From Gracilariopsis chorda (taxonomy: Eukaryota; Rhodophyta; Florideophyceae; Gracilariales; Gracilariaceae), in NCBI GenBank assembly GCA_003194525.1, contig NBIV01000168.1, forward strand, positions 62,001 through 126,000: a stretch of 64,000 nucleotides of DNA. The letters are read 5' to 3'. Both the position numbers and the translations under genes were made by a program. Below, in pieces: positions 8,799 to 64,000 of this stretch (position 1 is the stretch's first letter; every line of letters starts with the position of its first letter). The notes beneath the pieces were generated by a model that did not search any database, was not told where the DNA came from, and saw only the letters and a program-made list of their open reading frames with translations.

Positions 8799-9146
8799 CG
8801 AAAACAGAGAGTTTTTATCAGCAATTCAGCTGTTCATTTGACCAATCAAGAACTGCGCTATCTTTCCCGCGTAGCGTTTTGTTTTGAGTGTGTTTCTGGG
8901 ATGGAGTTGGACATGGCTGCCCCTCAAGAGTTTGGTCTCAGGCGCACTGACAAAGGAACGAGGGGCAATTGAATCTCAATGGGCCTGTTGCCTTCGCTTT
9001 CACGAGCCTGTTGCGTCCCGGTCCACTTTATTGTATAGTAAAGTCAATATTTGGAGTATCCTGCATCAGCCGCACGAGCAGCGTCGAGCTCACTGAGCTA
9101 CGTCTTAGTAGTACGCGATCTTAGTGATACGACGGCCTTATAGAAC

Positions 9147-9978: not shown

Positions 9979-9983
9979 AGAAC

Positions 9984-11796: not shown

Positions 11797-14700
11797 TTAC
11801 GTGAAGGCTGGAGGGTTGATCTTTGTCAATGCTTCAGCTAGATTCAAAGATCCTCGTATCCAAATCCACTTGTTTATCTCATTCGATTCATAGAAATAAC
11901 GTAGTCGAGCGACTGTGGGCCTCAATCGAAAGTCTTTCTGCTCGTGGAGAGTCGAAATGGTGGTGAAAAGTCCATTTGACTCTACCACGAGTGTTATATC
12001 AGGGCGTGGTCGATCGCCATTCATTGATATAATGTGGGCAAGGGTTTCAGACTGGATTGCATGATCAGCTGTGTACGCAGCAGCCAGATTTTTTTGCGCC
12101 AGCCGATGAGAATGAAACACGGTTTTGCTTTGAGCTATGCCCATCTATGTGGTGGTAAACGATGCAATTCTTCGATTCGAATATTACACCAGTTATCAAA
12201 CTGTTTTGTTCATACGAAGAAGTTCCAGAGGCTGCATCATTCAAGCTGAGTATTTGGAGTAGCTCAGTTTGGTTTGAAAGTGGTTCTTGCGGAGATTTGA
12301 AGTAGAGGTGAGTTTTTAGAGAACGAATGTGTGTCAGGGTAGAGTTAAGTTAGCGAATATTTGACACTTTGAGTCTCAAAGCATATTGCTGCATCTTGCT
12401 AGCAACAAGGGAAGCGTGCGGGAGTATGCCATGTCCCAGGAACTTCAGTTTGCCAGTAAGTATCTGATATTCCCTGATTTCCTATGCTGTGCAAGGTTCG
12501 TCGTTTTGATTCTGGCGCGAATGGGTGAGATCAATACGGCTAATTGAACTTAGACATTCATCCATGTTGACGGAGACGGAGAAGTCCGGGTTTTGTCGAA
12601 TAAAAAGACGGTTGAGCACGATATCCGACTCAGAGCTGAATCTTCCAACATCAAACTTCGGAGATATAGACTTCTGAAATTGGTGGAGAGCTTCAGGTTT
12701 TTCATCAAAGGTCATGTCGTCGACAACTTTGGCAATAATAAGCGTGAGCTTGCTTCCCCTCCGTAGAAGAAAGAACTGAAGAACACCGGGAAGATCGACG
12801 AATCCTTGTTCAAAGAGCCAGTTTTTGACACAGAGTTTCCAAAGCTGACCTGATTCTACGAGGCCATAAGCAGGGGCTAGTAGTTTCCATAACTCATCGA
12901 AAAACTTCGTCCATACTCGTCGAAGTTTCATGTAAATGTCCTTATTCAGTTTTCCAGCTTGAAGATATGCGTATTTTACATCAACAGCAGCTATGGTGAA
13001 GTGAAACAGAATCGCAAGGGATACAAGCAATCTAAGAGTAGGAAATTGGGCCATTGAAGAATCAGAGCGCAAAGCATGCTTCTGTTTGTCTTTGTCACCA
13101 TGAGGAACAAGACGGCATTTCAGTTTCAACTGGTTGCTTTCTCCATCTTGCTTGATCATGAAGAAGTGATTTGATGAAATCAAGTCGGTATTACGAAGGA
13201 GAGAGCGTATGGATACGGCTACATAGGCTTTCCGTTTGGCATATGACTTCTTTCCCTTTTCAAGAGCCTCATCTAGTAACTATTGTGGGGCACATTGAAG
13301 TTTATACTCAAACGAAGTTTCCTTACCGAGACATTGATAAAGGTTTCGGAGTATTGCCTGCTTTGTGGTCGCGGGTTTGGGAGCGATGCTCTTGACCGAG
13401 GCGTATTCACCGATATTCTTTGACGAGTGGTTGACTGGTGTGACTAATGCACTTTGAGAAAGACAAGCAACACTAGAGGGGCGATCATTCAAATCGGCAA
13501 AGTCGGATTGTTTGAGGTCGGTATCGAATGGAAACAGACTTGGTAGGTCATCTTATATTGTCAATACTTCTTTTGTGTTGTTTTCTGTCAACGGGTGGTG
13601 ATATTGGACTTTCTGAGGTTGGTTTTTTGGCCTCGTTGAGGACAAGTCCACTCCATCCAAGTTCTATTTCTTCCCCTTCGCGAAGTGGGTTGGATTTGGG
13701 TTAGCGGCTTCGTATGCTATCGTAGTACTGTATCCTTTGAGGTTCTTTGTCATGGATACGATACCACATTGTGTATTCACTTCCTTTACAAATCTGAAAT
13801 ACCATTGTCCTCGTTTAGTTCCCCTTTGAAGAAGTACACAGGGGTGCTTAAGGAGGGTTTGATCGAGGCATTTCACAGTCCTCGAACGAGTGAAGTGGTG
13901 AAGAGCATGGCAAGCAGTTTTCTCGTAATATGCAGAGAGAAGCAGCTTACTGACAGGGGTCTGATTGATTCCTGGCAATGCGGGACGATATCCACGCGCA
14001 AGTTCAAAACTTGAGATGAATCTCGAATCTCTGAGACTGTTCTTCAGAAAGACGGCTCGAGCGACTATATGTTGATCCGAGTGAACTGAAAGACCGTTAC
14101 TGGCAGCGAATCCTCTTTCCTTAATGAGCCTTTGAGAAAAATAGGGAATAGCTCCATGAGATGATTCTACAATGCCTAGCTTGTTGTGTCGTCGTGTATG
14201 CAGAGGTTTGCACTGAATGTTGTGTGAGGCATATATGGTCAAGAATTCGTCCTTGAAGAACTCCGGGTCTGCTCAAAGTTCAACTGGCACTCCATTGATA
14301 CTAATCCAGTGGGTATTGAAGCACTTCGACGCTTCCTTCATTTTGTGAGAGAGGCACAGGGCCGCTGCAGAAAATCCTGTTGCAGAGTCCCTCATTTGTA
14401 GAAATGGAAAATTTCCAAGTTTTGCGATGACCATGAACTCCAACAGCACATGTTCGTTGAACTCTTTTAACAACCGAGAAAAAGAAACCCTGCGAGATTC
14501 GAGTGCTTTCCCTGTTGAGGCACAGGTCTTGCATGACGAGTACCCCTCAATTACCAGTGATTCCAAGGTTCTGGTTAGTACTCCTGCATGGCTACAGATT
14601 CTCTTCATGTCCCCAGGATTGAAGTGTGTGTAGAGGTGGAATCGCTTCGCGAATTGTTTCTCATTTTCGCTGACTTTCTTAGCAGAACGTCCTGTCCTAG

Positions 14701-22696: not shown

Positions 22697-25600
22697 GAGT
22701 AAACCATACCCTAAGTGAAAGTTTTGGAAAACGATGAGTGCCATTGGCGAGCGCATTGCACACTCGGATGTCACATAGAAGCCAACTGGACGGCATGTGG
22801 AGGGTTCAAAATCTGCATTTGTATCCTATACGAGGTGTCACATTGGAAGCTACCCGGACTGCCAATGGTATGCAGATGGAGTGCTAGGGATACACTTTGC
22901 ATACAATTTGCACTCAGAATATACTTCTACGAGAGTGACCATACGCCCATTGCGATCCACTCCACATCCGAAAATTGAAAAAATTGTAATTCTTCGTGCC
23001 AGATGTGTCACTTTGGAACACGCTCTGAGTTCTTCCTGATGTCATATGTAGTGCGAGATCCTAGAATATTGCACTCCATTTGCACTCCCCAAAGTCCAAA
23101 CATATTTTCTAGGGATACCAAACTCATTGCACTGCCAACCCACCATGGAATCCATCAGAATGCACCCATTCGTATGGGGAAACTCAAAACATGGGCTGAC
23201 CCAGTGCGGGAAGGGTCAACCCCATATGAAGAGGATTTCTACGCATTCCGGCCAAGGCGTTGTTCTGAAGGGGCGGTAGATTGTTGCGGTCTCACAAAGA
23301 GTAACTGTCCAATTTCCATCAAAGCACAATTTGAATACAAAATGGACGGGAAGATGGCCAAGATATCTTTGAAAGCATTGTGTGATAGGGATCTTTACGT
23401 GTGGCACTGATTTGCACGGCGACCTTTGGCGAACAACGACAAAGCGATTGTCAAAGTCTCCCGGTTTTTCAATGATATATTATTCAATAGCTTTGACTTC
23501 TGTTTACAATTATCATACAAACTTGTTTCTGCGTCAGTCTCTCGAGAATTGCCGTGATTATTGGTAGAAGGACTGTAAACAAAGTCGTCTATTTTTGCCC
23601 TTCCAATTCACTAACCTGGAATTCAAGAAGAACAAAGGTTCACAAAACGGCAGGAATCTATAAGGAAACACATTGAAAGGATGTTTGAGATTCTACAGTC
23701 CAGGTTCAAAGTACTAAGAGAAAAGATACGAATGTGGTTCCTGCACGAGATTTTCAAAGTATCCCAAACCTGTGTTGTTCTTTACAATGTAATTATTAGC
23801 ATGCAACAAGCGGGTGAATGTACGGATAATGTCCAAGAAGAGAAAGGAAAAGTGAAAAAACTAACACAAATCTACGATTTGGAACATGGAAAACATATCA
23901 AATGCAGATGAGCAAATGCAGGAGACAATTGAAAATTCTGCTTGTTTTGATAACGAGAACTCTAAATGGGAACAACTCATGGTCAGGCACGAACTCATAA
24001 CATCCAGACTCGGACATGAAGTACTGAAAGAAGATCTTATCAAACGAATGGGGAACGAATAGACTTGTTCATTATCTGCAGCTGTAGTTTGCTCTCAATA
24101 GAAAGTAAAGCCAACTTCCCAGAATTACAATTAGTCTGGGAGGGTTCCCGCTCCTGTTTGCCTTCTCCCTGGTATAGCAACCTCTCAGAGCTCCTTCAGC
24201 GTTAGAAACAAGTATTAATTTCATCATCCAGGTCACTAAGTACCTTCAGGTCCTTCGGTTCTTTCTGATCATCATTCCATGAGCTCTTCATGCTCTGTGA
24301 GTAACTTCCTGTATCGCTTCCTGTGTAGGACTTCGCTTAATACTCTTCGATATCCGCCGCCAGTTCATGCGCTGAGGACATGAGTAGTTTCAACGGCAGT
24401 TTAATGGCTTTGCTAGACTGAGGTAGCACCTGCAAGATCCTTAATTTTTTTTTGTTCGCTTCTTCTCCTTTGCCTCCCCGTAAGAAGTGCTCCATAAAGT
24501 GGTAGTTCTCTTGATTTCCCCTTGGACCGTGTAAAACATCTTGGTCACTTTCTTTTTCATGCTGCTCTCCATTTCTCTCTGCTTTCTCTTCTTGATCCCT
24601 ACTGGACGGTTTCGTCTTGGTTTCAGGCCAGTTTTCTCTTCGCCGTCGCTGTCTTCATATATATCTTTCTGCAATGCTTCTCATTTGCGCCAGAGTTCTG
24701 CGATTCCGCTTTTACGCAGTATAATAGGGCACCTTTACTACTCCTTCTATATTTTTTCCGAACGTAGTCTGCTTACTGAGGATTTCTGCGGCGTCAAGAA
24801 ATAGGAAATCAGGAGAATACTAGAAAACACACTTTTCGACCTTCATTCTGGCCATCATATGATAGAGCTTCATGACTTTGTCCCGAGTGTCCTCGTTGTG
24901 AATTCTCAACATTCTCTGAATCTCAATCTTTTTATTTCCGGCAATATAGTGCTATAACGATTGCGAGAGTTGTTCTTATGTGAACCGGAGAGAATGAGCA
25001 GTCAGTAGCGTTTCGTATTTGCGACAACGCTGTGCAAACCCACTCCAGAACTGTTACTTCTTTTGATTCGGTGCAACTGCCGACTGCTTGAACCACGCTT
25101 TGAGGAGTATTTACTTTCCACGAACTGTAGAACTTACCTCTTCCTCGAATGCGTTGAAAACAAGAATGGTCGTTAGTGTTCTGAGATCTATTTTTCTTGG
25201 TATCTGAGTGGTTTGAGTATTGCTGGGAACTAAGGATCTGCGTTTGCGAAGAATATGACCTTTCTTACCCCCTGTGGTCCCCCAGTGTTCACTGTTCTTA
25301 CCGTTCTGGTTACTTTCTATTGTTGGAACAAATATTCGTTCGACTCAGTATTGAGTTTTGCCGTGCTGACAGAACAAGCAAAACCCCCCACTGCCTGGTC
25401 TCTTTCGGCTTTCTGCACGACCCACAGGGGTGTACCTTCCCTTTTGGTTTCTGCCCTTTTTCTCCATTCTCTTTCTGGATTCCCCTAGGACCGGTAGAAC
25501 GCTCACAAGGACCTGTGCACTATTTTGTCCAGCTGGTAGCCCGGTTCTCCGTATCACCTCCGTCGGTATAGCCGGACGCCACCTCGATTTTACACCCGAA

Positions 25601-25839
25601 CACCGTGTGGTACGGAGGGCCCGGTGGCTGTGCCTACCTCAGAAGAGAGCAAGGCCGTGAACACCTTGGTAGGATCCCCTGCATAGGTGTATTGCTCCAC
25701 AGGCCCTCATCAACTTACGGCTCAGCGGCATCCCCCAAACTTCCAGCTTGCTCATCAAGTATATCAAGCTGCGGTGCAGCCTGAACAAATGAATCCACCG
25801 GTGTGGCAATTGCTTTAGCATCAGCTAGTTGCAGGAAAT
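22697..25839. other. 3.1 kb without a supported gene
   Basis: No convincing gene is visible. At about 25360-25500 the sequence shares words such as GCACGACCCAC with the reverse complement of the LTR at 35330-36054, so an inverted LTR relic may lie there. From about 25520 weak matches to the N-terminal part of the antisense chromovirus protein may begin. The rest is unrecognised, probably old repeat DNA. Confidence 0.35.
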
Positions 25840-27151
25840 ATCCATCAAGGACCATGGGCTTCATATGAAGAGTTAGAAGCAATGATTGGGCGAAAAACTG
25901 CAACTCGGCACTTACAGGCACCATTGTCCCACCCTCATGGCGTCCCAAGATGATCATCTAGTCATATGAAGATGACATAGTCCAGTGACTGGGTGGGTTG
26001 CACGTCTACATGACGTTCTTAATCAACTGTAGATAACGGATTGCTGTTCTTTCTCAGGCTATCATCCACTAAAGTGGTTAAAGTGGCGCAAAAGCCCTGG
26101 CGGGCCTCATCGAGGTGGCCCATCAGCGGTTATACCGAACTTATTCAGACCTTCCCATTTCAAAAAACTTCCGTTTTGACTAGGCCTTATACCGAAAGCT
26201 TGGGGAGATGCAATATGGAGAGAATCCCGCGCATCTCAGGAACATTTTTGAACAGTACCAGGATACTCTGGTTCATAAAAACTTATTCTATTGGACACGT
26301 CCGCGGTTGCGTGCAGATTTGCAATATCTAACACGTGAATCACGGTCATATTAAATTCAGATGGTGGTACCTCTCGAGCAACGGATCCGCTCCCGCTGCA
26401 GATATTTTATACCTTATGAGAACACTGACGCGAATAAGATTCGCGCTCGCCATACGCGTGGGAGATATGTTCCGACTTCATTCCTCTTGGCCTCCACTGA
26501 AGTGTGCCGGGTATGCTGCGTAGGGCCTCCACCTTGCATCAAGTACGTGGGTAACCGGTAAACCAGCAGCCCTTTCACGGGATGGTGGTACGTTTTGAAC
26601 ATGAAGTAGGCTGCGCTAACGGCTGTATATCTCCTCCAAGAGGTCCACGACCGATAGTGTCTTTCATATATCACACCGACACCTTGTCGTCGCATCAGAC
26701 CTCTCGATATTACAACCCCGCTCTGTGGTAATGGAAAATTCTCAGAGATGATGGGCTCCTTCAATGATATCGACAGTAACGACTGGATTGCAGTACCGGT
26801 GTGCTGGTGGGCCTGCAGCAATGAGTTGGGCACAAGTGACCGATCGCCTTGAAAAAGCACTCCCCTCGCAGTTGATTTCATCTACTTTGATCCGTGGACG
26901 CGGGTGATTTCATCTATAACGATCCATGGACGCGAGTGACGGTTACTTGAGACGAGGCGTTCATTCTGCGAGACGCAGAAAGGATTATCCTGATGGGACA
27001 CCCCACTGGGTTTTTCGTCACTGACGAGTTCTTCCCCGCGGCTGATGGACAAGATCCAATGTTACATGATGTTTCTGATGAGGATTCCAGAATTTCGAGT
27101 GTGGCAGCGAAAGATCTGTCTAACTCGGAAGCAGGGCATCGATGCCTGTGA
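25840..27151 (+). pseudogene. Decayed antisense gene of the older chromovirus
   Basis: Reading codons in phase with 26127, the plus strand encodes a broken protein homologous to the antisense ORF at 58444-60183. Matches include RLYRTYSDLPISKNFRFD against RRYHRLANEVPVPSRYGFD, WTRPRLRADLQYL (26292) against WTRPILRAEFRYL, RYVPTSFLLASTEV...PPCIKYV against RYVPLPTFWPAVEV...PPCLTYV, and DFIYFDPW (26874) against DFVYFDPW. After one frame change AERII...HPTGF matches AERII...HPRGF. The spacing WTRP-to-DFxYFDPW is 582 nt here and 570 nt there. In-frame stops (for example after FRFD) show it is dead. It lies tail to tail with the chromovirus pol, which ends at 27705. Confidence 0.82.
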
Positions 27152-27704
27152 CTTCGGCGTATCGTCTGTGGTTCCTCGGGCTACACCAGTTCCCATTCCG
27201 TCGACATCGATTGCATCGGCCACATCAGTGACAAATGATGTCCAGCGCGCCACTGTGAACTCTCTGTTGCTTCAGGAGGCTGGGTTGCCCAACGAAGCGT
27301 CAAGTGACATCTCCCAAATGCAGGGTGCCTTCCGCGCGAGTATGAGTCCCAGACAGAATAGTGGAGATAGACCAGATGCTGGTGGACCTTCCTTCTAAGG
27401 ACATAGAGTTGGTGAGTTGCCGATTAACTTGGCTGCAGTGAGCCCAAATAGCCGGTAGAAAGAAAGAAATGAACTTTCACTTAACTGTGATTCTCTACTA
27501 TTTTCTTCTTCTCTTCTCCTTCGGGGTATTCATATATATATAGTGTGCAAGTTTATCTTCTCTTCGCATAATTTTCCTTCCTTTTTCAATGCTTCGTTAC
27601 TTCCTTACCTTCTAAGGTTTCCTTCTTCTTCTGCTTCTCCTCCACTCCAGTAGTGGGCTCTTCATTTCTCATCTTTGGTGTAACCGTGCCGCTACGGCGT
27701 GAAG

Positions 27705-27911
27705 CTAACCTACGCGGGCTTCATCAATGTTTCGAGACAGGTCTGATTGTGTACGGTGATGATAATGCACGATATAAGATCGGGGGAGGTGTTCAGCCGG
27801 TTCATCCGTGTCCATCGATGACGAAAAGCCATATCAACGGACATGGTATTGTATGGACCCATCAGGATCGTAACCGTGTCCCACGATTTGGTCGATATAA
27901 AACTCTTCTGG
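27705..27911 (-). pseudogene. Chromodomain at the C-terminus of the older pol
   Basis: Residues EEFYIDQIVGHGYDPDGS align with EFVIETIVSHGYDSNGE of the younger element, followed by EHLPRS...HYHHRTQ against EHPPRS...QYHRRTR, and both proteins end two residues after a D-x-A-x-V-G motif. One Trp codon of the expected RWYG is a TGA. In chromoviruses this domain guides integration to marked chromatin. Confidence 0.7.
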
Positions 27912-30900
27912 ATAAACCTTTGACGTCGCAGTGTCTTCAAAATTCCACTCTGCCAATAAAGATGACGGCTACACCAGTGTTGCAACCACCTGACGGATTG
28001 AATCTCACGTCTGAGACGAGGTCTAGAAGCTCTGATGCGTACTAATTACCTTCGTCATCAAGAGTTTCCGAGATTCATCAAGTGAAAGATGCTTGGATTC
28101 CGTGAATTGACGGGGTTTCCTTTTTACGGGCTGCGATCGTTCAGACCAGGGAGGCATATCAGTTGTACTGAGATCACGTGTAAGTGACAATGGCGTCTTC
28201 ACCATGGTGTTGCCAACAATGCCCACTGGCATAAAAAACGTCCACTGTTGGGGGTGCGTGGCACACCGAGTGGCGTGGCGCGGGACAGTGCTCCTGCGCT
28301 TGAAGTGTCAATTACTCTAATATGGGCTGTAAATGAGCTTTCATTATCCACCTGCTGGTGTCTCTAGCCATCTGGATGGGGATCATGTACATTTTTCACA
28401 TTAAGTGGTGATTCTAAGCCATCATGAACCATCTCAGGGCAAGCGTTTCCCACTTCACAGTGTGCTTTGTAATCTGAGGAACAGGTGCTGAGTAATCCGG
28501 GAACTGCTGTGGCTGTCTTATGGATTACAGCGAGCTGCGATGACGACTTAACTTCAGTGACGCTAGAGCGTGTGAACGATGGACTATCTAGGGTAACCAC
28601 ATTGGTATACAGCAGAATGTTTGTCTTCACTATCTCCTGTCGATTAGGTCTAACAGTTTCCAATTCTGACTGCGTCAAGGATAATTGGCACGAGCGATCA
28701 CTAGACTGTGATAAGTCCGTGATGGTACGGGATATATCAGCATTCTGAAGCGAGTGATTTTTATCTGATGCGATCGAGGGTTACCTCCAAATACGATTAG
28801 TATCCCCAGCAACGGGTGCAGTATGCCTTCTAGTGTTACCAGGCGAATGCTGTGTTGCGTTGCTGACATTCGGAGTGGTCTCAGCTGCGCCGACTTGGCT
28901 GTCGCCATGGAGCAATTCAACTTCGGTCACCTTGCTTCAAGAGCATTAAACAACGGTCGCGACACCGGTAATTGTTCTTCGGTAGAGCCGGGAATCGCCT
29001 TCCCCTCCTAAATTGGAGTGACATCAAGAGCCGAAAGCACGTTCAATGGCATATTAACAGGCCCTGAAGATAGAGTGCAAACGAATTGGTTTGTAACTGA
29101 AAATTCGGTTGAAGAAACCGACTGTGAGTGGGTACAACCAAGCGAAGGGATCTGGATCCCAGTAGGGGGGGTTTCAATGTATTCCTGTGAAGAGGAGGCC
29201 AAAGTTCTATCATGCGTTCCAGTACACAGTTGAATTGCCTCGTTAGAGAGTTTAGGAGCTTGAACCACTCGATCTCAAGAAAATAGCTCATGGCCATCAC
29301 CAACTTACAGTACCACTGTGTCCTTATTGATTTCAAAGACTTTATACGAGCCATCTGCGATGGGTGAAAGTTCGTCACGTCTTCTCCTTCTCAGGATTGT
29401 AATATGTCTTAAGGACTTAGGCTAATCGTCGATTCTCAAGGAATGGAAGTGACTGGCAGATCCGAGCATCGAAATTCCGCTTGCAAGCCCGTTTTTCCCT
29501 CGCAATAGACGATTTGGCGAACAGTACAACTACGGTTAGCCAATTCTTTGATTGGATGCTATGGTCCGTTCTGGACAACAACGTATCAAGCGTAAGCTTA
29601 GATTCGACCACCACAGGTTCTGGTGAACAAGAGAGGACCAATTTCAATGGAGATACTGTAGTAACTCTGTGAAAATGCGTATTATACCCACACATTATTC
29701 TATGCCTGGAAAGTTCCCAAGTTCTTGATTGTTCACCGTACGAGCACGTAGTGCCAGTAAAAGAGTACGATTAAACCGGTCACCATGCCCACTACAATGG
29801 TGTTGATAGTTGTTCGTAATCATACTCTTCACACCGAGTACTCGAAAAACGTCTTGAAAGAGACGAGCCACATATTGTGGTCTGTTGTGTGAAACGAGAG
29901 TAATCGACGGGCCGTAAACCAAGACCTGGTGACGGACAAAAGCTTCCGCAAAAACTCCAGCGTTCTTTTTCTTAAACAGAACTGCCCAGACTAATTTCGA
30001 AAACCTATCGATGATCACGAGCAGATACGTATTTCTACGGGATGTTCCAAGGAAATCACCGAGAACATCGATATCCAAAAATTCGAAAGGAGCTCATGCC
30101 GGAAATAATGCCAACTTCTTCATTTGACGACGGAACATAACTCGTTCCTGAACGCAGTGCGTAAAAGTTGTCACCATTGAGTAACAGTGAATCGCGAATG
30201 CGGACCAGTACAAATCCCTACGAACCGTCGTTTAGAGCTTCCTAGCACCGGGGTGAGCCAAAATCTTCGAGTGATGGGATACATGTAGAACTTAAGATTG
30301 AAGCGAATGAGGAACAACAATCTGTGGAATGGATGAAACTTTTCTGACCAGATATCCCTGTGATTTCAATTGAAACGGGATATCAGCACCGCCAATAATC
30401 TGGGCGCGCGTTTTCGTACAAAACAGATCTCCGAACTGTTCGCGAACTAGTATTTCGGAGGTAGTCGGTGTAAAGGATCCCGCCTCCGTATCTTCTCCGT
30501 TCGAAAAGAGTAGGTCATCACAGACATCGTGCCGCACCACATCGAAGTCTTAGTCATACTACTCAAGGAGAAAGCAGGCAATCTCCTCGTCGAGTTCATC
30601 GACGATGAGTGCTTCAACTTCTTTTCCCAAACGAGATAATGCATCCACTTAAGTGGTGAGATTACCGTTCTTATAGGTCACTGTCGTAGTCAAGCTCAGC
30701 GAGCCGAAGCGTCAAACGCATTACACATACCGAAGGTTCGGATATCGACGTAGAACAGCCCAAGGCAGAATGATCCGTGTTGATAGTGAGGCGGGTGCCT
30801 ATAAGAAATGTTAATAATGCCTGCAAAGCCCACAGCATGGCAATAAATACCTTCTCTGACACAGATTAGTTCCATTCATGAGCTCGGATTGTTGGTGACC

Positions 30901-33353
30901 ACCATCCAATGGGCTTGGCTCCCTCATCAGGCGTAGTTTGAAACACAGTACCGACTTGGTGAGCACTAGAATAGGTGTCTGTGGTAAAATATAGATCTTT
31001 ATTTAATAAAGATAATATCTAGGTAAAGATAACTACCTCTTTGAGAGAATCAAAGTCTTCCACTTGAGCAGGTGTACACAGGTCCATTCTTAAGGGTTTT
31101 GTTCTTCAGGAGTTCGTAGAGTGGTCTGGCAATCCTGGAGAAGCTGGGAAAAAGTTTTGGTAGACGTGGCAAAGTCCCAGAAAGAATCATAAGCCCGTAG
31201 GTATAGAAAGGTGCTTAGCCTTCTTAAGGGACTTAAAACGAGCGTCCTTGATCAGTAACCGTCCTGGAAAGATGACATACCCAAGATAATTGATCGAATC
31301 GGTAAAGAAGTCACACGTCCTTAACATCAAGGTAGTCCCAGCATCTTATGACGTGGCCACGATCTCTGGGAGGTGTTCGAGGTGGTCATCCAGACTACTG
31401 GAAAAGAAAAGGATATCTTCAAGATAAACGAGACTGCTTCGCCATTGGGAACGTGCAAGATGGGTATCTTACGCCCATTGAAACGTAGCAGGGGAATTCT
31501 CAAACCCGAGCCACATACGGTAGAAGCCATAAATTCCAGAATTGCATACACATTCAGTTTTATCACGGACCTATGGTCGAACTGGTACATCCCAGTAGTC
31601 TCAGTTTGTATCTAATGTAGAGAATGCCGTAGTCTCACCAAGAGAGCCAAAATATTCGTCCATGCAAGGTATCAGATACACATTCTTGACTATAACAGCA
31701 TTCAAAAGTCTAGAATCGACGCGTAAGGGCCAGGAACTCGTTGATTTCGTAGCAAGTACGACTGGACATACCAGGGGCAACTGAACAGGCTCAATTGTGC
31801 TTGCGCGGAGCATCTTATGCACTTGAAAATGTTGCTTCTCCCGTCCTGCCTGCCCTGTTCGGTAGGAATGCTGAGCAATCGGCTGCGCGCCAGACACAAG
31901 TTCAATACGGTGTCCTGTGGCTGAGATCTCTCCAAGAGAAATATCCCACATAGGTGTGAGCTTACGTAAAATGTCACGCAGTTCTTCGCAGTGGAAATTT
32001 GGAACGTGTCCGGGATTAAACTCTTGCAATTCCCCAACAGGGTCGAAGTTCTCATATCTCGTCGTAACGCCCTTCTTTTTGGAAAGTTCATGTTGTTCTT
32101 CTGTTGCAAAGCAGCGTCACGACTCTTACCCTCCTTAGACTAAGGAGTGTCTTCCGAGGTCGGAGTGAATCCAAGTACCTCAACGGCTTACAACTTGGTG
32201 GGTATCAAAGCTGTCGGGTGCGGTGTCATGGTTCCAACAAAATGGTTGTTTGTCAGATACTGGACCCGTTTACCAAGATTGTCAATAAAGACCTGGACAG
32301 GGTGTTCATTCGGTATCTGAACTACACAACTCGCTATGTCAAGCTCATACTTCTCATACAATGATTTATGCGGTTGAACAACTTGCAACTCTCGAGGAGC
32401 GGCTATGAAATCGATCATTTACTGGTACTCAGGAGGAATAGTGACACGTCGTACGAGACGAAGCTTCGAAGACTCCTTCGGAGATGTGGAATCCTGCAAG
32501 GGAGCTGGTAATGGATCCAACTTTGAGAAATCCTTCCGACTGAAGATATGAGATATAAAGTTTGATATGAACCTAATAAGTTTACCACAGAACACATAAG
32601 TTTAAGATGTACACCAGATATCGTTTCGGTATAAATTTGAATTTGGAACTATATTTCTGCGACTATCATTCAAGATGTTGGTTTACATTTGATATATTTC
32701 CAAAATCGGTTTCAATAGTTTCTGATATGGGAAATCCCAGAATATATCAAAACGATATCAGAAGTCTACGTAATCATCTTGATGCAATATCAATTACATA
32801 ACACATTTACAGCTAGTGCATATCCAATAATAATGAAATCTTCCCATTACCATATCCTTACTATATCAAATCTCTACTAATTTTAGCATACATTCCTCAT
32901 TTGGAGATATCAGTTCTACATCAGAACCATATCTTGGATTTTCCTGGGCCCTACGGAGGGAGCGACGTGCTATCGGCATTGTTGAACCAACTTTCATTTC
33001 AATCTCCCGCAACCACGCCCGAATTGAATCGACAAATCTGTCACGGACGTCACAACATAAGTAAAGGGAGCGGCAAGCGTTTCGCAAACGATTAATTCAA
33101 GCTGCACAAAGCAGTTTCCAATCATTACTACAGGAAAAACGACACCTGCTATCTTCAAAGGGTTATTGATAGCGTCGGCAATGTCCATAACAGGTCCTTG
33201 ACGAACTTGACCACGGCTTCTCAGCGGTAACAACGATTCAATAATAAAAGTTGGGCTGGCACCTGTATCCAAGATGGACAGATGACGCACCTTATACTGG
33301 ATGGGCATACCAAAGTCAGCAAAGCATTTGTAATTCCTCTTGACCATAAGCAT
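27705..33353 (-). pseudogene. Decayed Ty3/gypsy chromovirus pol, older copy
   Basis: On the minus strand the gypsy order is visible in fragments. An aspartic protease is at 32994-33353 (HLSILDTGASPTFI). The RT N-part is at 31601-32029 and the RT core is at about 31330-31590, with the catalytic motif read as YLED near 31413-31427. RNase H is at 30671-30862 (TINTDHSALG). The integrase core is at 29695-30078 (LLVIIDRFSKLVWAVLF) and its C-part is at 29417-29695 (ACKRNFDAR). A chromodomain is at 27705-27911 (YIDQIVGHGYDPDGSIQYHVR, one internal TGA) ending DEARVG. Every segment matches the younger copy at 60568-64000, including the last residues. Many stops and frameshifts make it inactive. Confidence 0.85.
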
Positions 33354-36783: not shown

Positions 36784-37620
36784 TCAGGTACACCGGGGGA
36801 AAAAGCAAGCAATACGCTTCTTTCGTACCACACTCAAGCTAGTTTTGCGCATGTATGGCGACGAAGGAAGAAGGGGTGCTCTCCGACTGGGCGGTATGGA
36901 GACGCGTGTCGGGGTGCGTTCATACCAGCCACGACGGAACGCCTTAGCTGCTTCGTTATCTGCAAGTCTACTCTGCACAAGCGTCGCGACAGCCCATCTG
37001 CGAACTTTTTTTCGACGGAAAGTATCCCCTCCGAGCGAAATCGCACACCGATTTTTTTTAGGACCAGCTTCAGTTTTCGAAGCTCTCTCATCATTTGCCG
37101 CGAAGCGGAAACCAAAAAGTTTGTGATATACACTACGGCCTGCTTTTCGACATGCAGGAGCAGGCTGTGGTGGTGCGCTTTGATTATGTTCTGCCCGAGA
37201 GAGTCGGAACAACATTAGAATTGCATTCAACGCCCGGTAACTGATGGATTGCGCGCGATCTTTCCAGCTCCATATTGCTTGAGCTCTCCAGCAGCCATCG
37301 AAACCCAGACTGATTTCTTTGTCGTTGAACGTTCCACCGTAGCCCACGTCTGCGGCGTGCGTATGGAGAGCTGCAGAAGGAGTGGGAGGGACCATTTGCC
37401 GTCCGTCCAGTTCCTGAGAGCTCAGTTGCTTCCATTTACGAAGATCACTTTCACTTTGATGACTCAAGCGGCTCCGTCCACGGTTGTCTTCTTCTCTGAC
37501 CACCGCCATGTCCCGGTACAGCGACTTCGTGTAGATTCTTGTCCAAGGCATAGCCAAAAAACCCAACGCAAACCCCACAAAAGTGTTTGACTTCCTTTTT
37601 GCTGACTCATCTGCGCCCAA
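36784..37620 (-). pseudogene. DIRS RNase H region
   Basis: This is a 278-residue open frame that overlaps the RT end. It contains HTHAADVGYGGTFNDKEIS, in which the D-x-G-x-G pattern is the RNase H start of DIRS elements, then ISYRALNAIL, and later ADNEAAKAFRRGWYE ahead of the recombinase. The far C-terminal residues are frame-shadow. Function in the element is removal of RNA during cDNA synthesis. Confidence 0.6.
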
Positions 37621-38482
37621 AGCGTGCGTACTGTAAGATGGACGTGGACAGGTCCTGTAACTTCTCCAGTTTTCGAGGCGCCATGAGAAATTTCATATTT
37701 TTGCTGGCGATGAGCACACCAAAGTGCTTCAACTGTGTCGAACCATCCCAGCAGCCTTTGGAGGGATTGAGTCGCAACCCGAAGTTTTTCAGGAGAGAGG
37801 TAACCACTCTCCTCGCTCTGCAGCAATAGATTTCGCCTGCGATGAATCCGAATGGGAAAGGTGCTATCAGGAAATTGTCCAGGTAAGCTAGCACTCGGAA
37901 GCCATGTTCTCGCAAGCGGCAAATTAGCGGAGCCGTTAGCTGCGTGAACCACAGAGGGAACCTTCCCCATACAAAAGGCATTACGACGCTCTGGTAGTAC
38001 CTCCCGTCGTAACAGAAGATGAACCAGTCTCGCATGTCTGGATGAAGTCGGAAATGCCGGTAGCCCTGCTTCAGATCGAATGAAATGAAATGATGTTTTG
38101 TTGGATTTGTATGGCGACCTCTGGCAATGATTCCATCTTCAATAATCCTTTCCTGGTACTTCAACTGCACGGAGAAGTTCACAACGAATCTTCCCTTCTT
38201 TACATACGGAATCTCCTGCCAAACCATGAAAGCCGAGGTTATAACAGCTCTATTCTCTTTGGCCTTTACGCCATGTGCGTAGGGTATCTCTCGATAGATT
38301 CCGCTCGCACAGCCTTCCATGAGATCGGCTGCCGCGAACTTCTTGTTCTCCATAGTTTGAAAGATGTCTCTAAGGTCCATTTCTTTCCCTTTATCGAGTT
38401 TAACCGACGGACTTTCGTGGATCCCAAATCGACCCGCTTGGCACAGGAACTCCGAGCAGCCCAGACGACGCCTTTCTTCCAC
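37607..38482 (-). pseudogene. DIRS reverse transcriptase, catalytic YLDD reads YLDN
   Basis: This 291-residue frame has the DIRS RT pattern: GRFVVNFSVQ, the motif-A block FISFDLKQGYRHFRLHPDMR, YYQSVVMPFVWGRFPLWFT, and AYLDNFLIA (37874-37885) where family members have YLDDFL. Loss of the second Asp would abolish polymerase activity, so this copy is dead even though the frame is open. The start Met is probably internal to the original ORF; the upstream part is cut by the piggyBac left end near 38.7 kb. Confidence 0.8.
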
Positions 38483-47279: not shown

Positions 47280-47588
47280 AGGGAGTGCCCGAGCGCGGGC
47301 CAGACCCGATAAACTTGCGGATGAGCAGAAAGCGCCGTGCACCAGCCCAACATTCGCAAACAATCCGCTCGCAGAAATGGTTCAACGTTACACGAACATC
47401 CACTGCAGCCGCCACACGTGGCCAGCGCTCGCGTCGCAAGCCGAATCATGCGCCACGCCGAAGCGCTGTCATACGTGTACGGTGTGCAGGACGCACAGAG
47501 ATTGAAAGCGCGTGCCACTCGCTGCACGCGCGCATGCAGCACACACCTCACAGGCCGAGCTGTGCCACGCCACCATGCACAGCTTGTG

Positions 47589-47616
47589 CCTGCCCCCCAC
47601 CCCCCCCCCCCCAACC
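47589..47616. repeat. Cytosine-rich tract in the 5' region of the GTPase gene
   Basis: Runs of C interrupted by single A residues lie about 150 bp upstream of the GTPase start. Such tracts are prone to length change and can form G-quadruplex on the other strand; a regulatory role is speculative. Confidence 0.6.
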
Positions 47617-56861: not shown

Positions 56862-57450
56862 GACTTATAAATATCGTTACTTCGTCGCGAGGGCCGGTGA
56901 GGCCCGAGCTAAGTCAAAACCGTCGTGATGGGACATCTGCAGGATTAATTTCTGAGGGGATCCAGATCGGAATAATCGGTAGTTCCGCAGCTAGTAACAA
57001 TGCAGATATTCGACGGCTGGCTCGCTGAAGCGTGGGCGCAGACGTTCGGCTTTTTCCGAGGAAAAAATACAAGACTTATGAATCGATGAGAGAGGAAATG
57101 CGACAACCTATGGGACGGGACTGCCTACATAGCCACCTGAGACGAAAGAGTAACGCTTCGGTCTCAAGTACATTAATGTGCGCAGGGCACCGCCATCCAT
57201 GCGATTGGATTAGTTTCCAATCTAAGGACTTGAGGTGGTCCCCAACAATTGAGAAATCAAGTGCTTGATTTCCCAATTCTCGAGGATCGTTTCCCGGAAA
57301 AATGGGTTTTAGAAAATCAGATTGATGCGCCACAATTGACGTTTGCGGGGAGTGGTGGATGTTCATAGGGGCTTAGGGAGCTGCTCTTCCTCGTGTGCTA
57401 GCATCGGTGCATAATAAAAACGGACAGTGATCCGCTTTCATGTCAGCATG

Positions 57451-58388
57451 TGTGGTGCAATACCACACGCGGAAAGGATCCTGCGACAGCGGCAAAGTCA
57501 CCCAAGGTGTCCGAGCCTTGCTCCCTTGGTGAGGGCGGCTCAGAGGTAGAGCCCTCCGAACGTGACCGACACGAGTCGGATGTAGGGCCGAACGGTCACT
57601 TCTCGCACAGCGCACGGAGGTGTGGGAGAATCGGATCTAGCGCTCGACGGACAGTCGATCAGTGTGCAACTCGGTGTTGCCGGTGGTCTGGTGGAGTCCG
57701 CTGTATGCTGCGGCGCGGCGAGTGGAACACCCACGAATGAGGGAACGATCCGTACAACGGTATCCTCTAGGACAAAGAAATGAGGGGTGGGGAACGAGCC
57801 GCACGGCCGGCGCGGACTCGTGACGAGCAATAAATATCCCGAGACGTCGGGGCCAAACCTGATACAGGGCGGAGTAGAAACAGTCCGTATGACGGTGAAC
57901 AGAAGAAGAAACAACAAAAGAAAACAGAAAGTAGTCCGTAAGTAACGGTGGTATCACTCCTTGATGTGCAAGGGGGGTGACGGAGCCGGATCGGTAGCAG
58001 CACTCCCCTAGGTTGGGGTCGTAGCCGTATACCAACGGTCAAAGTCAGAGCCAAAACCCTTGTTGAGGTTTTCTTCCGTAGGGTCGGCGGCGAGTGCCGC
58101 CACCTAAGTACGGCCACTGTAGTGTGGATTACTAACTAAAAATAACTAATTACCCCGGGTGCACCGGGCCTGACATCCACGTGTGCGTGGTGGCTCACTT
58201 GGCATGAGCCGTCCACTCAGGCGGTGTGCACTACACGTGTTACCCACAAGTACCCCCTTCATAGGGGCATCTCCCATATAATGGGTTAGCCCAATACACC
58301 TCATGTATTCCGTATCCCAACGGCTAACCACGCATCTTATATGAAGAGCGATTTGATTCCCTCTACCTCCGGAGGCTATTGCACCACA
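57451..58388 (-). repeat. 3' LTR of the younger chromovirus
   Basis: A 938-bp LTR starts TGTGGTGCAATACC and ends GGCTATTGCACCACA, so it has inverted TG...CA termini. Immediately inside (58389-58406) the minus strand is a purine run (AGGAGGAGGAGA), the polypurine tract that primes plus-strand DNA next to a 3' LTR. This fixes the element on the minus strand. The family block GTAGAGCCCTCCGAAC lies at about 57546. The left flank GCATG (57446-57450) is the candidate target site; the matching copy lies outside the window. Confidence 0.85.
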
Positions 58389-58406
58389 TCTCCTCCTCCT
58401 GAGGTG
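58389..58406 (-). promoter_or_regulatory. Polypurine tract
   Basis: Read on the minus strand this is GAGGAGGAGA directly before the 3' LTR start, the expected plus-strand primer site of an LTR retrotransposon. Confidence 0.75.
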
Positions 58407-58443
58407 AAAACACTGGAACAACTTCGGCGACTTCCATCCCAAG

Positions 58444-60183
58444 ATGGCCATAAATAACCGAGAGGACTCGGGCGATGCAACCGACTCATCGGAGAGCCAA
58501 CGCGAACTCGCGCTTGTTCCTTACCATCCTTTTCCACGCCATCCAACGACAGCTGCGAGGGACTCCAACCAACCACCAACCAACCCGTCATCGGGTCCTT
58601 CCTCTCCGCGAATCCCGCGGTATCCGAGGCGCACTCCGACTGCTCGGGTATATGTTCCCGTGCAGCCACGGTTTCGTTTGGCTCCCTTGCCACCTCCGCT
58701 CGCGACGGCTCCACCATCGGTGGCTCCAAGTGATGACATCCCCGCAGGCGCTGGTCAACCAAACCAATCGTTCCTCCGCGATTGGAGCGACGCACCCGGC
58801 GCGTCGATGCCTGCCGCTTCTAGTGGGTGGCCAACGTATGGCGCCTTGCGCATCCGGACTCCGGCGAGGCATTCCGAGTGGTTCGCTCGGGCTCCTTGGT
58901 TCTATCCCGAGGCTGTTCGGAACACTCCGCTCATCGATTCGTATGCGGTGGACGGAATCCTACCCGGTAGGCTACCGGTGAGCGTTGTCCGGTCGTGGGA
59001 CTGGTTGGCGCACGTTGCGCTCTCCACGCCACTACTGTGGTGGGCGTCAAACGAAACGGAACACCGGGCGAGAAGTGAGATGGCCCGATTGGGCTATCGC
59101 CGATACCATCGGTTGGCAAACGAAGTGCCCGTTCCGTCGAGGTATGGGTTCGACGTCGCGTATTACCGTACTTACGGAGAAGCCTCCTATGGAGACCGCT
59201 TATACGGGGTGATACCAGAGTTGGACCAGTACTCTGGAAGTGTCCAGCCATACCAGGACCTGGTTCTCTGGACACGACCGATTCTGCGGGCTGAGTTCCG
59301 GTACCTCTGCAAGAGTTCACGCGGTGAGTTCTTCGAGATGGTCCGCTTTGAGCGGAAGCAACGTTCCCGTCGGGGGCTCCTGGTACCATACCAGCACATC
59401 GAGATCGAACGCCTCTCGTCGAGGGCCTGGAATAGATACGTTCCGCTGCCTACTTTCTGGCCTGCGGTGGAAGTCCCTCGAGGGTGCAACGTTGAGTTGC
59501 CTCCGTGTCTCACGTACGTGTACTCACGGTTCTTGCAAAATCCGCCTCGTGGTCTCTGGAGTCTCCTAGCGACGGAGTAGACCGTCCGGGTTGCAGCCTT
59601 CCTCCTGTGGGAGGTGTACGACAAGTACCGGGTCTGGTTCATTCCAGAGTTGCTCCGCCATTCCATTCGCGGTTTGGATCTCTCCGAGGTACTCGGTTCC
59701 GTGCGTAATGCGCGAGAAGCCACCGGGTTGGTGGACGTGATCGACCAGGTCGACTGGGACACTGTACCGGCAACTCAAGCGTCGGAAGGGATCCGCCGTC
59801 GGTGGGATAAGTCTCCTGGACGGAATGTCGCTGCGGGCGATTTCGTATACTTCGACCCGTGGCAATGGGAGCAGATATCCGCTAGCGAAGCGGCTGAGCG
59901 GCGCCGTGCGGAACGGATTATCCCCGATGATCATCCAAGGGGCTTCGTGTTCGTCGAGGAAGACGAGGGTGGCGAGGAATATGAGGAAATCGCTGAAGCG
60001 GGGTCACCGATGTCGGATGGCGATGGCGTGGTCGAGGAGATCGACATCACCGACAATGTCGGGGCATCCAGTGGTGCTGGTGACATTCCCTCGTGCGGGG
60101 GCGATGCTCCAGTGGCTCCTCCTTCCCCGGTGGCGGGGGGGGGGGTGCGAACAACAGTAGCACCAATCCGCAAGTTGCAGTAG
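58444..60183 (+). CDS. Antisense accessory gene of the chromovirus (unknown protein, one internal TAG)
   Basis: On the strand opposite to pol, a frame of about 580 codons starts 56 bp from the 3' LTR and ends 385 bp from the pol stop, tail to tail. A single TAG (59578-59580) divides it into 378 and about 200 codons in the same phase. Residues 1-110 are Pro/Ser-rich and probably disordered. A Trp/Tyr-rich globular part follows (WDWLAHVALSTPLLWW; WTRPILRAEFRYLCK from residue 276), then DFVYFDPWQWE (466) and AERIIPDDHPRGF (489), and an acidic tail EEDEGGEEYEE. No signal peptide, membrane helix, zinc motif or known domain is seen. A diverged homologue occupies the same position in the older copy (25840-27151), and homology continues past the TAG. 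So the two halves are one ancestral protein. Transcription may start in the adjacent LTR (inference). Confidence 0.8.
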
Positions 60184-60567: not shown

Positions 60568-62000
60568 TCAACCCACTTGGGCATTGTCCAGCGTAGCTGG
60601 TATCGGAGTCCGCGTCCTGCGGTGGTATTGCAAGACCTTCGAGCGTGGAGGGTGCTCGATCGGTTCGGGTTTCTCTTCGTTTGGAGGGTATCCGTACCAA
60701 CGGACTCGGTAGACCAATTCTCCATTGGAATCGTAACCATGGCTCACGATGGTCTCAATGACAAACTCTTTGTCGTGTACTTCCCGCTGTATGGGTGGTA
60801 CGCGACTTTCCTCGGCGGAGGGCTCCGTTCCGCTGTGACTGCGGTCGGCTGTGACTGTCTTCTCCCGTTTCGGCGGTAGCGCGTCCTGTACTCCAGGTGG
60901 TTTCCGTGAGCCAGGCCACAGTGCCTTGGAGGAGGTTCTAGTGCGCTCCCATGGTGCTACGTCCGGATTCTTCGGGTCCTCCACCTCAGAGTGGTTTTCT
61001 TGGGGCTTCCAGTCGTCCCGTACTGCGAGTTTCCTCGGCTTCGAGGGGTGTTTCCGTGTTGACGGAGGAGCTTCCGCGTCGCGCGCGCTCAGCGTGCGGT
61101 GCACGGTCACGTGCCGTGGCGGCGGTTGGCCGTTTGGCACGGGCGGTTCACTGTCAAGCTCCACGTCGCCGTGGGACGGGCCGTTAATTTCGGAATTTCC
61201 AATTTCAAACGGCGGCCGTTTTGCGACGGGGCCACGCGTTGCACTTGTGAGTTCTAGCTCCTGTGGAGGCGGTTCCCCTACGGGGGGTGACACTTGGCGC
61301 TCTGTTGGCGCGTCCAGGTGACTTGGTGAATCTCCACTCTCCGTGGCGCGTGTGCGCGCTCCGTTATCACGGCTCCCGTCCGTCTTCTCGACGGTGTCGT
61401 GAGCGACTTCATCAGACAATCCCAGATCTGGGTCAGCAGTCACCGAGCGTTCTCGGGTGTTCTGCCCTTCTCTTGCCGCGATCGCGGGGGTTCTCTTGAA
61501 TTCCTTCCGCGTTTGCGGTACGTCTCCCGCCTGTGCGGGCTTCCTGCTAACATCCTTCTTCTCTGTTTCCGCCGTTTGTGGTTGTACTCCCCGCGATGGG
61601 GTAACCGGCGAATCCGTTTGCGACGGCGAAAAACTGGAATGTGTAGCTGTCCCCTCCCCCTCCTTTGCTGGAGCGACGGGGTCAGAGGTAAGAATCCCCG
61701 TGAGCGGGGCGATGCGCGTGTGGATGTGGGACGGTGCCGGGGGTGCAGGGTGAGGTTCCGACGCGGTCGGCAAGTCAGCAAGGCCACGTTCCGGGTGGGG
61801 TAGAACAGTAGGGCGGGTAGTTTCCTCATCCACGGTGGGGGTTTCCGTGTCGACGGGTGTGTCCTGTGCCGGAAGTTCCCGGGTAGCGGCGTTAGCTGGC
61901 CTCGGCGCGAGGACGACGCGGTCACGAGAGATACGTTCGTGCTGTCCCTTGATATCAAGTACAACCGTCGTGTCGGTAGTAGAGACAACCCTATATGGCC
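60568..62000 (-). CDS. Chromovirus pol, integrase C-terminus, Pro-rich linker and chromodomain
   Basis: Past a one-base frameshift near 61998-62004 the minus strand continues the integrase C-terminal domain (GPYRVVSTTDTTVVLDIKGQ), then a long Pro/Glu/Thr-rich linker. It ends with a chromodomain at about 60568-60775 (EFVIETIVSHGYDSNGELVY, RVRWYGYPPNEEK, EHPPRSKVLQYHRR). Chromodomains of gypsy chromoviruses bind histone marks and direct integration. The linker is unusually long and hydrophilic. Confidence 0.85.
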
Positions 62001-62850
62001 CTCCGCGATCGGAGACAGCTTGTGACGCTTCTCCTTTTCGGGGTTGTAATATTCCTTGCGGAGAAATACATAAGAGTTCTCCCCGAACTTCGGGGTCCTG
62101 TCCACTCGGGCATCGAAATTCCGCTTATAAGCGGTTTGCGCTTTAGACATCGCATTCCGTACAACGGGTAAGATCTTGGTTAACCAAGCTTTCCAAGCGT
62201 CTCTGTGGTACCGTGGTGACGGAAACTTGTCCAACGTAGCTTGGGTTTCGATTGCCACCGGTGGTGGGGTACGCGAGAGTACCAGCTCAAATGGAGCAAT
62301 TCCGGTGACTCGGTGAACCTGCGTATTGTAGGCGTAGGTTACGGCGTCGGTGTAAAGATCCCAATCAGTGGGGTGTTCCGCAACGAACGTTCTGAGGGCG
62401 TTCAGCATTGTGCGGTTGAAACGCTCCACCTGCCCGTTAGCTTGCGGGTGGTAGGTGGTGGTAAACCAGTTCTTGATGTCAAGAATGCGACATACGTCCT
62501 GGAAAAACTTCGCTGAGAACTGCGATCCATTACCCGATAACAAATCAATCGGTGGTCCATAGGTGAAAACCCAATGGTTAACAAAAGCCTTCGCGACGGA
62601 GGTAGCTGAAACCTTTGGCAAGGGGACCGTACGCACAAGTTTAGAGAAGCGGTCAGTAATTACCAGCAACTAGCGGTTGGCTCGAGGTGTTCGGACGAAT
62701 TCGCCCAAGGCATCGATTGCGACAAATTCAAGGGGAGCCCTTGCGGGGAATAGGACCAACTTCTTGGAGTACTTGCGCAACTTGATGCGGTTCTTCGCAC
62801 ATGCCGAGCAACCTCGGACGGTAGCATATGCGTCAACAGCCATAGCTGGC
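62000..62850 (-). CDS. Chromovirus pol, integrase zinc finger and catalytic core
   Basis: The frame shows RGCSACAKNRIKLRKYSKK (second half of the H2C2 finger), then LVITDRFSKLVRTVPLPKVS with the first Asp, DLLSGNGSQFSAKFF where the second catalytic Asp reads Asn in SGNGSQF (usually SDNGSQF), and HPQANGQVERFNRT with the Glu. Stops TAA (62853-62855) and TAG (62670-62672) interrupt it in frame. The Asp-to-Asn change and the stops mean this copy cannot make an active integrase. Confidence 0.85.
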
Positions 62851-62852
62851 CA

Positions 62853-64000
62853 TTAGAAATCCTTGCGTAAGGTGTAGTACAGCTTTCTCCCGCCTGGGTG
62901 AGCGGATAACTTCGCATAATGCGAGAGATTCAGAACTCGAGACTGCAGGGAGTGAGGTACCACGATCTGTGGGCGATCTCCGACAGTTCGGACGAGGTAG
63001 CCTTGGTCATTCTTGACAAAGGGTAAGGTAGCTCCTCCGTTTAGGTGGGCGCGAATCTGCGTGCACAGCGGGTCTGAGTGCTGTTCCCGGACCACTTCTT
63101 CCGGAGTAATCGGTACAAAAGAACCGGGTACGGGCTCCGCAGATGATGCGGCCAGAATGGCATCGAAGATGTCGTACTCTTCCGGGTCCGAGTCGGTGTC
63201 ATCCTCTTCGTCTTCCAAAAGGAAACAAGGTATCTCCAGGTCATCCACTGGTTCAGCTTCCGCGGCTGTTGGCAGGCTGGAAAGTGCGTCGGCCTGAGCG
63301 TTCAGGATACCCTTCTTGTACCGGACTTCGAAGTCAAACTCTGATAGCCGGAGTCTCCACCGCATCAAGCGGCCAGATGGCTCCGAAATGGAGAGGAGCC
63401 AACGCAAGGCCGAGTGATCGGTGTGCACAGTTAAATGGTTTCCCATAAGGTATGGGCGAAGGGTTTGTAGGGCCCAAACTACAGCCAGACATTCCTTCTC
63501 GGGCACCGAGTAATTCCTCTCGTGAACGTTGAGGCTCCATGACCAATAACCGATTGGTAAGCGCTCTGCACTCTCTGTGGTCTGGAACAATGTGCATCCA
63601 ATCTGGACGTTGCTTGCGTCCGTGTCCACGGAATACGGTAAACCGAGTTTCGGTAGTGACAGTATCGGTGGCGACGTCACCGCATCCACGAGGGATGAAA
63701 AAGCCTTTGCTTTAAGGTCATCAAATGGTTCCAGGTTGACTGGTTGTCCTTTCCAGAGAAGTGCGTTGAGAGGGGCTGCAATATCCGCGAAATGCGGGAT
63801 GAAACGACGGTAGACGTTGCACATACCGAGAAATGATCGGAGTTCCGTTTGCGTTGTCGGGTGCTTGGCCTCCTTGAGGGATTTGACTCGCACCTCGTCA
63901 ACCGACAACCGTCCCGGACGGATAACATGGCCGAGATATTTCACGGTGTCTGTGAGGAACTCGCACTTCTTAAGTTTGAGGGTTATGCCTCCGTCACGTA
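62853..64000 (-). CDS. Chromovirus pol, RT thumb and RNase H, continuing beyond the window
   Basis: The frame is open from the window edge to 62853. It reads the RT connection MKYLGHVIRPGRLSVDEVRV and LRSFLGMCNVYRRFIPHF, then RNase H with PYSVDTDASNVQIGCTLFQT (catalytic Asp), EKECLAVVWAL (Glu) and HTDHSALRWLLSI (Asp), followed by an acidic linker (EDEEDDTDSDPEEYD) and the start of the integrase zinc finger (HYAKLSAHPGGRK). The RT palm with YxDD, protease, gag and 5' LTR lie to the right, outside the window. Confidence 0.9.
   Translation of the reverse strand, partial: RDGGITLKLKKCEFLTDTVKYLGHVIRPGRLSVDEVRVKSLKEAKHPTTQTELRSFLGMCNVYRRFIPHFADIAAPLNALLWKGQPVNLEPFDDLKAKAFSSLVDAVTSPPILSLPKLGLPYSVDTDASNVQIGCTLFQTTESAERLPIGYWSWSLNVHERNYSVPEKECLAVVWALQTLRPYLMGNHLTVHTDHSALRWLLSISEPSGRLMRWRLRLSEFDFEVRYKKGILNAQADALSSLPTAAEAEPVDDLEIPCFLLEDEEDDTDSDPEEYDIFDAILAASSAEPVPGSFVPITPEEVVREQHSDPLCTQIRAHLNGGATLPFVKNDQGYLVRTVGDRPQIVVPHSLQSRVLNLSHYAKLSAHPGGRKLYYTLRKDF

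Follow-up and report, generated by a model that had tools for sequence, protein, structure and literature searches.

Chromoviruses of the red alga Gracilariopsis chorda probably form a lineage with an ancestral third gene that is antisense to the other two, would be expressed from an LTR-started antisense mRNA, and would encode an accessory or regulatory product acting in trans. In G. chorda the gene has a defined position and orientation, is conserved at the protein level and has been inherited together with pol. The analysis concerns a stretch of 64,000 nucleotides ("the window", C168:62001-126000) and the G. chorda genome to which it belongs (91.3 Mb in 1081 contigs), which was searched for relatives.

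Two copies in the window

At 25,953-27,392 the plus strand carries the decayed remains of a protein gene that runs antisense to the pol of a chromovirus (Ty3/Gypsy). It is tail to tail with pol, in the interval that separates pol from the 3′ LTR. A first-pass annotation had claimed that the strand beyond this pol stop reads, largely in one phase, blocks homologous to the antisense protein of a younger element in the window. This homology is borne out. When 24,000-30,500 is compared with 57,000-64,000 in six frames, the best pair is plus with plus (139 bits over 392 columns, E 1.7e-35); overlapping pairs of minus frames reach 72, 39 and 37 bits. The anchor blocks are present in the old and the young copy respectively at 26,292 and 59,269 (WTRP), 26,463 and 59,434 (RYVP), 26,529 and 59,500 (PPC), 26,874 and 59,839 (DF[IV]YFDPW), 26,975 and 59,908 (AERII), and 26,999 and 59,932 (HP.GF). 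The distance from WTRP to DF.YFDPW is, as had been noted, 582 nt in the old copy and 570 nt in the young. The single phase holds up to ~26,903 and then shifts because a 32-nt tandem duplication repeats the DF.Y.DPW block, which is present at both 26,874 and 26,906.

The homology is longer than had been claimed, as an intact relative, L035, aligns with all of 25,953-27,392 (tblastn, 246 bits). This and L034 (223 bits) are the nearest types to the protein of the old copy. There are 9 in-frame stops at 25,992-26,903 in the core part, 10 in the parts aligned to L035, and the chromodomain-like reading before the pol stop of the old element has an in-frame stop of its own. The old copy is a relic of the same gene and is itself dead. 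It belongs to an old family: a 7-kb query from the old element matched 40 stretches, one being itself and the rest 66-75% identical.

The young element spans 57,451 to 69,001 in window numbering (11.55 kb, the last 5 kb being beyond the window). With LTRs that are 99.7% identical, the target duplication GCATG and a polypurine tract beside the 3′ LTR, it is a recent insertion. One in-frame stop (59,578-59,580) parts the two listed ORFs of its antisense gene; relatives in the same family are open throughout this frame (583 codons in C99, 642 codons in C127).

Table. Features of the two elements, in window coordinates
Feature	Position	Strand	Basis and remarks
Old antisense gene, core part, decayed	25953..26903	+	tblastn with intact relatives, codon-position test, stop count
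32-nt tandem duplication, repeats DF.Y.DPW block and changes phase	26874..26937	+	sequence reading
Old antisense gene, 3′ part, past the phase change	26900..27392	+	tblastn, codon-position test, stop count
Old-element pol end: chromodomain-like stretch, pol stop 27,705-27,707	27582..27920	-	six-frame comparison, sequence reading
Old-element RT/RNase H	30683..31765	-	RT comparison; 49% identical to L042's
TSD GCATG	57446..57450		border reading; repeated past the other LTR, outside the window
Young-element 3′ LTR	57451..58388	-	99.7% identical over 939 columns to the 5′ LTR, C168:130063-131001
Sense-strand polypurine tract adjoining the 3′ LTR	58389..58400	-	read from sequence
Young antisense gene, first part, 378 codons	58444..59577	+	ORF list; ATG 55 nt inside the 3′ LTR
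Young antisense gene, second part, same frame as first	59581..60180	+	ORF list, six-frame comparison
Young-element pol: RNase H, integrase, chromodomain-like end	60568..64000	-	Pfam, RT comparison; runs on past the window to RT and gag

Anatomy and abundance of the family

The first-pass annotation had proposed a genome-wide search for more copies, and these prove to be abundant: at least 297 distinct loci (merged matches, not counting a few such as C464) encode relatives of the antisense protein, many as open frames of 580-660 codons. The order common to elements L041, L042 and L043 is a gag-length ORF, pol (in one or two listed frames) and the antisense ORF (605, 622 and 626 codons respectively), which in all three is clear of the listed pol frames. 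The gag-length ORF precedes pol as usual in L041 (689 codons), L042 (727 codons) and the young element, and in L043 it is cut, in two frames. Position and orientation of the antisense gene agree in all four elements in which this region was read (C3, C160, C6 and the young C168).

RVT_1, RT_RNaseH, Integrase_H2C2 and rve are over the Pfam cut-off, in that order, in L042 and L041. At the C-terminal end of pol, the chromodomain scores 30.4 bits in L043 and 40.6 in L062, which exceeds the Pfam cut-off of 25.1; the young window copy, L042 and L061 fall short of it (21.5, 19.3 and 21.8), and Pfam lists no chromodomain in the 1490-codon frame of L041. An LTR pair with a 5-bp target duplication is found in the young element and in the C3 element (ATTGT by border reading, LTRs 99.5-100% identical by piece). 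By domain order, chromodomain and LTR structure, the carriers classify as chromoviruses (Ty3/Gypsy with chromodomain). The pol of L042 (L042:2282-7867) is very long at 1862 codons, with ~635 residues from the last integrase match to the chromodomain. Just inside the 5′ LTR, the primer-binding region of L041 and L053 has CTCCCGACCTAGAA common to both families, with no TGG start directly after the LTR.

Among the best 150 RT matches, a listed antisense gene is within 9 kb of 78 and absent from that range in 72; the nearest such gene, taken without preference, is downstream and antisense in 77 of the 78 and upstream on the same strand in one. With a longer gene list, and with an antisense downstream neighbour favoured if several are near, as in the later counts, the same 150 divide into 85 with the gene antisense downstream, 1 with it antisense upstream and 64 with none. 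For the 111 RT matches at least 83% identical to that of L042, which are the two closest families, the figures are 56 antisense downstream, 1 downstream on the same strand and 54 with none listed. Counted from the gene side, a listed RT is within 9 kb at 128 of the 297 loci; 124 of these sit downstream of it on the opposite strand, the other 4 have another RT nearby, and the remaining 169 have no RT among the matches listed.

An LTR edge is seen at 9 of 17 loci inspected. The first ATG is 55 nt inside the 3′ LTR edge at five of these (L009, L010, L023, L027, L043) and 175 nt from it in L041; the distances for L012, L026 and L029, counted from the first ATG of the longest open frame, are 691, -45 and 913. 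No TATA[AT]A box is present in two LTRs, in either direction.

A different Ty3/Gypsy lineage in the same genome, at C201, serves as an internal negative control. It is a 4,771-nt tandem unit with gag and pol, a chromodomain of 26.4 bits (over the cut-off) and an RT 35.7% identical to that of L042, and has no match to the antisense protein better than E 0.02.

Selection on the antisense frame

The first-pass annotation had deduced protein-level selection from the keeping of a frame by two such diverged copies, and codon-aligned comparison supports this: the frame of the antisense gene has the lowest pN/pS of the six, the best minus-strand frame is less well conserved, and the conservation is codon-periodic. 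Between the two window copies (167 codons), differences at codon positions 1/2/3 number 87/70/125 (chi2 16.9, 2 df), and the antisense-gene frame has a pN/pS of 0.57 and an identity of 0.33, where the five other frames range over 0.66-1.37 and 0.14-0.29. The old copy and the intact L035 (303 codons) differ at 122/95/196 (chi2 39.7), with pN/pS of 0.49 against 0.66, 1.02, 1.02, 1.34 and 1.40, and identity of 0.43 against 0.19-0.36 elsewhere.

A further comparison covered 14 pairs, six between families and eight close. In the six between-family pairs the antisense-gene frame has pN/pS of 0.45-0.64 and zero stops, whereas every other frame has 12-46 positions with a stop in either sequence: one minus frame has pN/pS of 0.56-0.74 but 21-36 such positions, and the remaining four have 0.95-1.66 and 12-46. 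These ratios are uncorrected and understate constraint, since synonymous change is near or at saturation. In the L042-L044 pair, change at the three codon positions of the antisense frame is 0.36/0.30/0.64, the third being highest. The eight close pairs give pN/pS of 0.42-1.27, ratios which show no selection, as is expected for copies drifting after insertion. Since close copies differ almost neutrally and the old copy has decayed, the selection detected is that which acted before insertion. The constraint is near that of gag and weaker than that of pol (pN/pS 0.46-0.60 in 6 pairs for the antisense gene, 0.48-0.49 in 3 for gag, 0.26-0.31 in 6 for pol). To the extent that sequence can decide the matter, the coding status of the antisense gene is established.

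Inheritance with RT, and relatives in other genera

Trees of RT and of the antisense protein from 11 elements branch alike. Both place C23 with C30 and then C160 (the last fork with 86/87 support in the RT tree), the young C168 with the C6/C355/C336 group and then C3, and C593 and C280 apart; in the comparison of the two trees the old copy is a long branch of unsure placement. The correlation of RT with antisense-protein distances is 0.91 for 10 elements and 0.64 when the old copy is included, and 0 of 9,999 permutations reached either value. The gene was therefore already present in the ancestor common to these families. The uncorrected distance of the antisense protein is ~3 times that of RT in most between-family pairs (0.64 against 0.21 for C3-C160).

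Relatives among protein records alone (P0001-P0004, P0006-P0008, P0009-P0015) include proteins of G. chorda, Gracilaria domingensis and Agarophyton chilense, which by sequence places the family in two more genera of Gracilariaceae. BWQ96_03215 of G. chorda is 100% identical to the C30 protein over residues 1-491 of 617; it, BWQ96_10156 (G. chorda) and FGB62_50g12 (G. domingensis) are family members recorded as hypothetical proteins. No homologue in the protein searches is named for a known host function.

Derivatives without the gene

Of the 54 RT matches without a listed antisense gene, six were read, and four of these are without most of the gene. In the other two the antisense frame is open for 566 codons (C619) or broken along the whole part read (C652). 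The four gene-minus copies belong to the 622-codon family. The C312 copy (L065) has a separate deletion of its own, while those on C3 (L060, C3:101400-109300), C5 (L063) and C177 (L064) have in common a deletion of ~1.8 kb that leaves approximately the first 60 codons. In L042 the short repeat AGAAGAAGG is at both ends of the stretch deleted. C3 has three RTs in tandem, and the deletion was read in one of the two intervals. As the same junction is on three contigs, a gene-minus derivative has spread or was duplicated. The antisense gene appears not to be needed in cis, since some copies lack it, and the gene-minus copies are in keeping with action in trans, or with dispensability.

The product, its proposed role and alternatives

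The antisense protein has a Ser/Pro-rich N-terminal part, a conserved core, a linker or tail, and a short C-terminal helical module. The core, of ~350 residues, is helical and rich in Arg (35-44 in 350), Trp and Tyr. The tail or linker is acidic in 10 of 11 proteins and basic in P0009. The threshold for 19-residue hydrophobicity is 1.6; the most hydrophobic 19 residues average less than this in 10 of the 11, and P0009 reaches 1.86. A core that is aromatic and Arg-rich and has no clear membrane span, together with the Ser/Pro-rich N-terminal part, the acidic tail and the helical module, would suit a soluble protein with nucleic acid or other proteins as its binding partners.

No Pfam family matches the antisense proteins over the cut-off (below it, DUF6127 at E 0.09 and CBP_BcsO at E 0.83 were seen for L042). 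There is no match among PDB sequences or PDB and BFVD folds, and no confirmed match among viral and prokaryote contigs. TRP28 (PF04195) was found neither in Pfam scans of antisense proteins (2 + 3 frames, E up to 1) nor in 9 alignment rows (E up to 0.5) or 3 proteins (E up to 0.1), and the Pfam scans gave no bZIP.

In the proposed mechanism the antisense gene would be a third gene besides gag and pol, placed after pol and ahead of the 3′ LTR. Its mRNA would start within the 3′ LTR or further out and be transcribed against the direction of the element's own RNA, as just 55 nt in two families, and 175 nt in a third, separate the start codon from the LTR edge. The product would be soluble, with the N-terminal part, helical core, mostly acidic linker and C-terminal module described, and may act in trans on expression of the element, handling of its RNA or its escape from silencing. 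By analogy with HBZ, and with the role proposed for the Retand antisense proteins of plants (below), it would most likely be a trans-acting accessory protein.

A core so rich in Arg, Trp and Tyr would also suit a structural or packaging protein (second capsid-like or nucleic-acid-packing) instead of a regulator, and the gag ORFs scanned had no Pfam gag match over the cut-off. However, a gag-length ORF is in its usual place in L041, L042 and the young element, copies without the antisense gene have spread or been duplicated, and no capsid fold was matched; a structural role is unlikely. That spread or duplication, and the lack of relatives among known element proteins, would also be expected of a separate mobile element or captured host gene which was inserted in one ancestor and has remained a functionless passenger. 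There is little probability of this, given the same place and orientation in C3, C160, C6 and the young C168, a constraint near that of gag with a tree matching that of RT, codon-level constraint that speaks against neutral carriage, and the absence of a homologue named for a host function (though a host gene could be among the 169 of 297 loci without a listed RT). An env-like gene that ended up inverted would account for a position between pol and the 3′ LTR, which is that of env in retroviruses, but the opposite strand, the hydrophobicity below threshold in all but P0009 and the lack of a Pfam match over the cut-off make it very improbable. That the antisense frame is no gene, being a by-product of DNA conserved for a sense protein, RNA structure or repeat, is scarcely credible. 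Minus frames of the window copies do align, and one minus frame has pN/pS below 1 (0.66 with the old copy), but the signal of this last frame is what a shared wobble position gives, it is full of stops where the antisense frame has none, third codon positions change most in the antisense frame, listed pol frames are not overlapped in L041-L043, and homologues are recorded in other genera.

The trans-acting accessory gene may be put in a more specific form, which is offered tentatively: an orphan family, with no relative named outside Gracilariaceae in the searches made, kept throughout the history of this chromovirus lineage as a 3′-LTR-driven gene acting in trans, would be a third independent origin of an antisense accessory gene, after those of deltaretroviruses and of Retand-type elements of plants, and its gene-minus derivatives would spread at the expense of carriers.

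Comparison with known antisense genes

Most of the antisense genes described in retroelements come from single lineages, and their function is often unclear. The ASP frame of HIV-1 overlaps env, whereas the red-algal gene lies clear of every listed pol frame in the elements read. ASP is an antisense protein whose function is described as not known (PMC10186651). HBZ of HTLV-1 lies on the antisense strand at the 3′ end under the control of a 3′ LTR promoter, and its product is a trans-acting regulator of the virus (PMC10186651). The red-algal gene is likewise a 3′-end antisense gene near the 3′ LTR, from which transcription would be driven; but HBZ is a 31-kDa bZIP protein of an animal retrovirus, while the red-algal product has ~600 residues and no bZIP match.

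Among plant Gypsy elements, those of the Retand lineage (Grande, RIRE2, Retand) are described as having, in most copies and in distant species, an extra antisense ORF between pol and the 3′ LTR, for the product of which DNA binding is predicted (PMC11963269). This placing is shared by the red-algal ORF. However, Retand elements are non-chromoviruses of flowering plants with a TRP28 (PF04195) domain in 97% of clusters (PMC11963269), whereas the red-algal elements have a chromodomain (over the cut-off in L043 and L062) and no TRP28 match. The red-algal proteins appear unrelated in sequence to HBZ and to the Retand ORFs and, by the domains tested, are members of neither group.

If the origin is independent, antisense genes at the 3′ LTR would look like a general strategy of LTR elements. 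This one small genome offers hundreds of copies in several families, an RT tree that matches and natural gene-minus derivatives, which makes it testable whether an antisense LTR gene is expressed, what its role in trans is, and why selection keeps it.

Other features of the window

A direct repeat of ~850 nt, 91.5% identical, is at 9124-9981 and, 46 kb away, at 55379-56247, the second being ~1.2 kb from the young 3′ LTR. There are fragments of other mobile elements: RVT_2 (Copia) type RT (12482-13183, minus strand, 58 bits), an RT of another element (RVT_1, 37607-38482, minus, 30.9 bits) and a DDE_Tnp_1_7 transposase (42326-43207, plus, 61 bits). Adjacent host genes at 45006-52292 encode methionyl-tRNA synthetase and an EF-Tu-type GTPase, with a gene on the opposite strand for a family A DNA polymerase that has a 3′-5′ exonuclease. 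Near the start of the window are an ESCO-type acetyltransferase with zinc finger (1956-2873, minus), a MYND-finger protein (3225-3887, plus) and a lactonase-type beta-propeller (5448-6617, plus).
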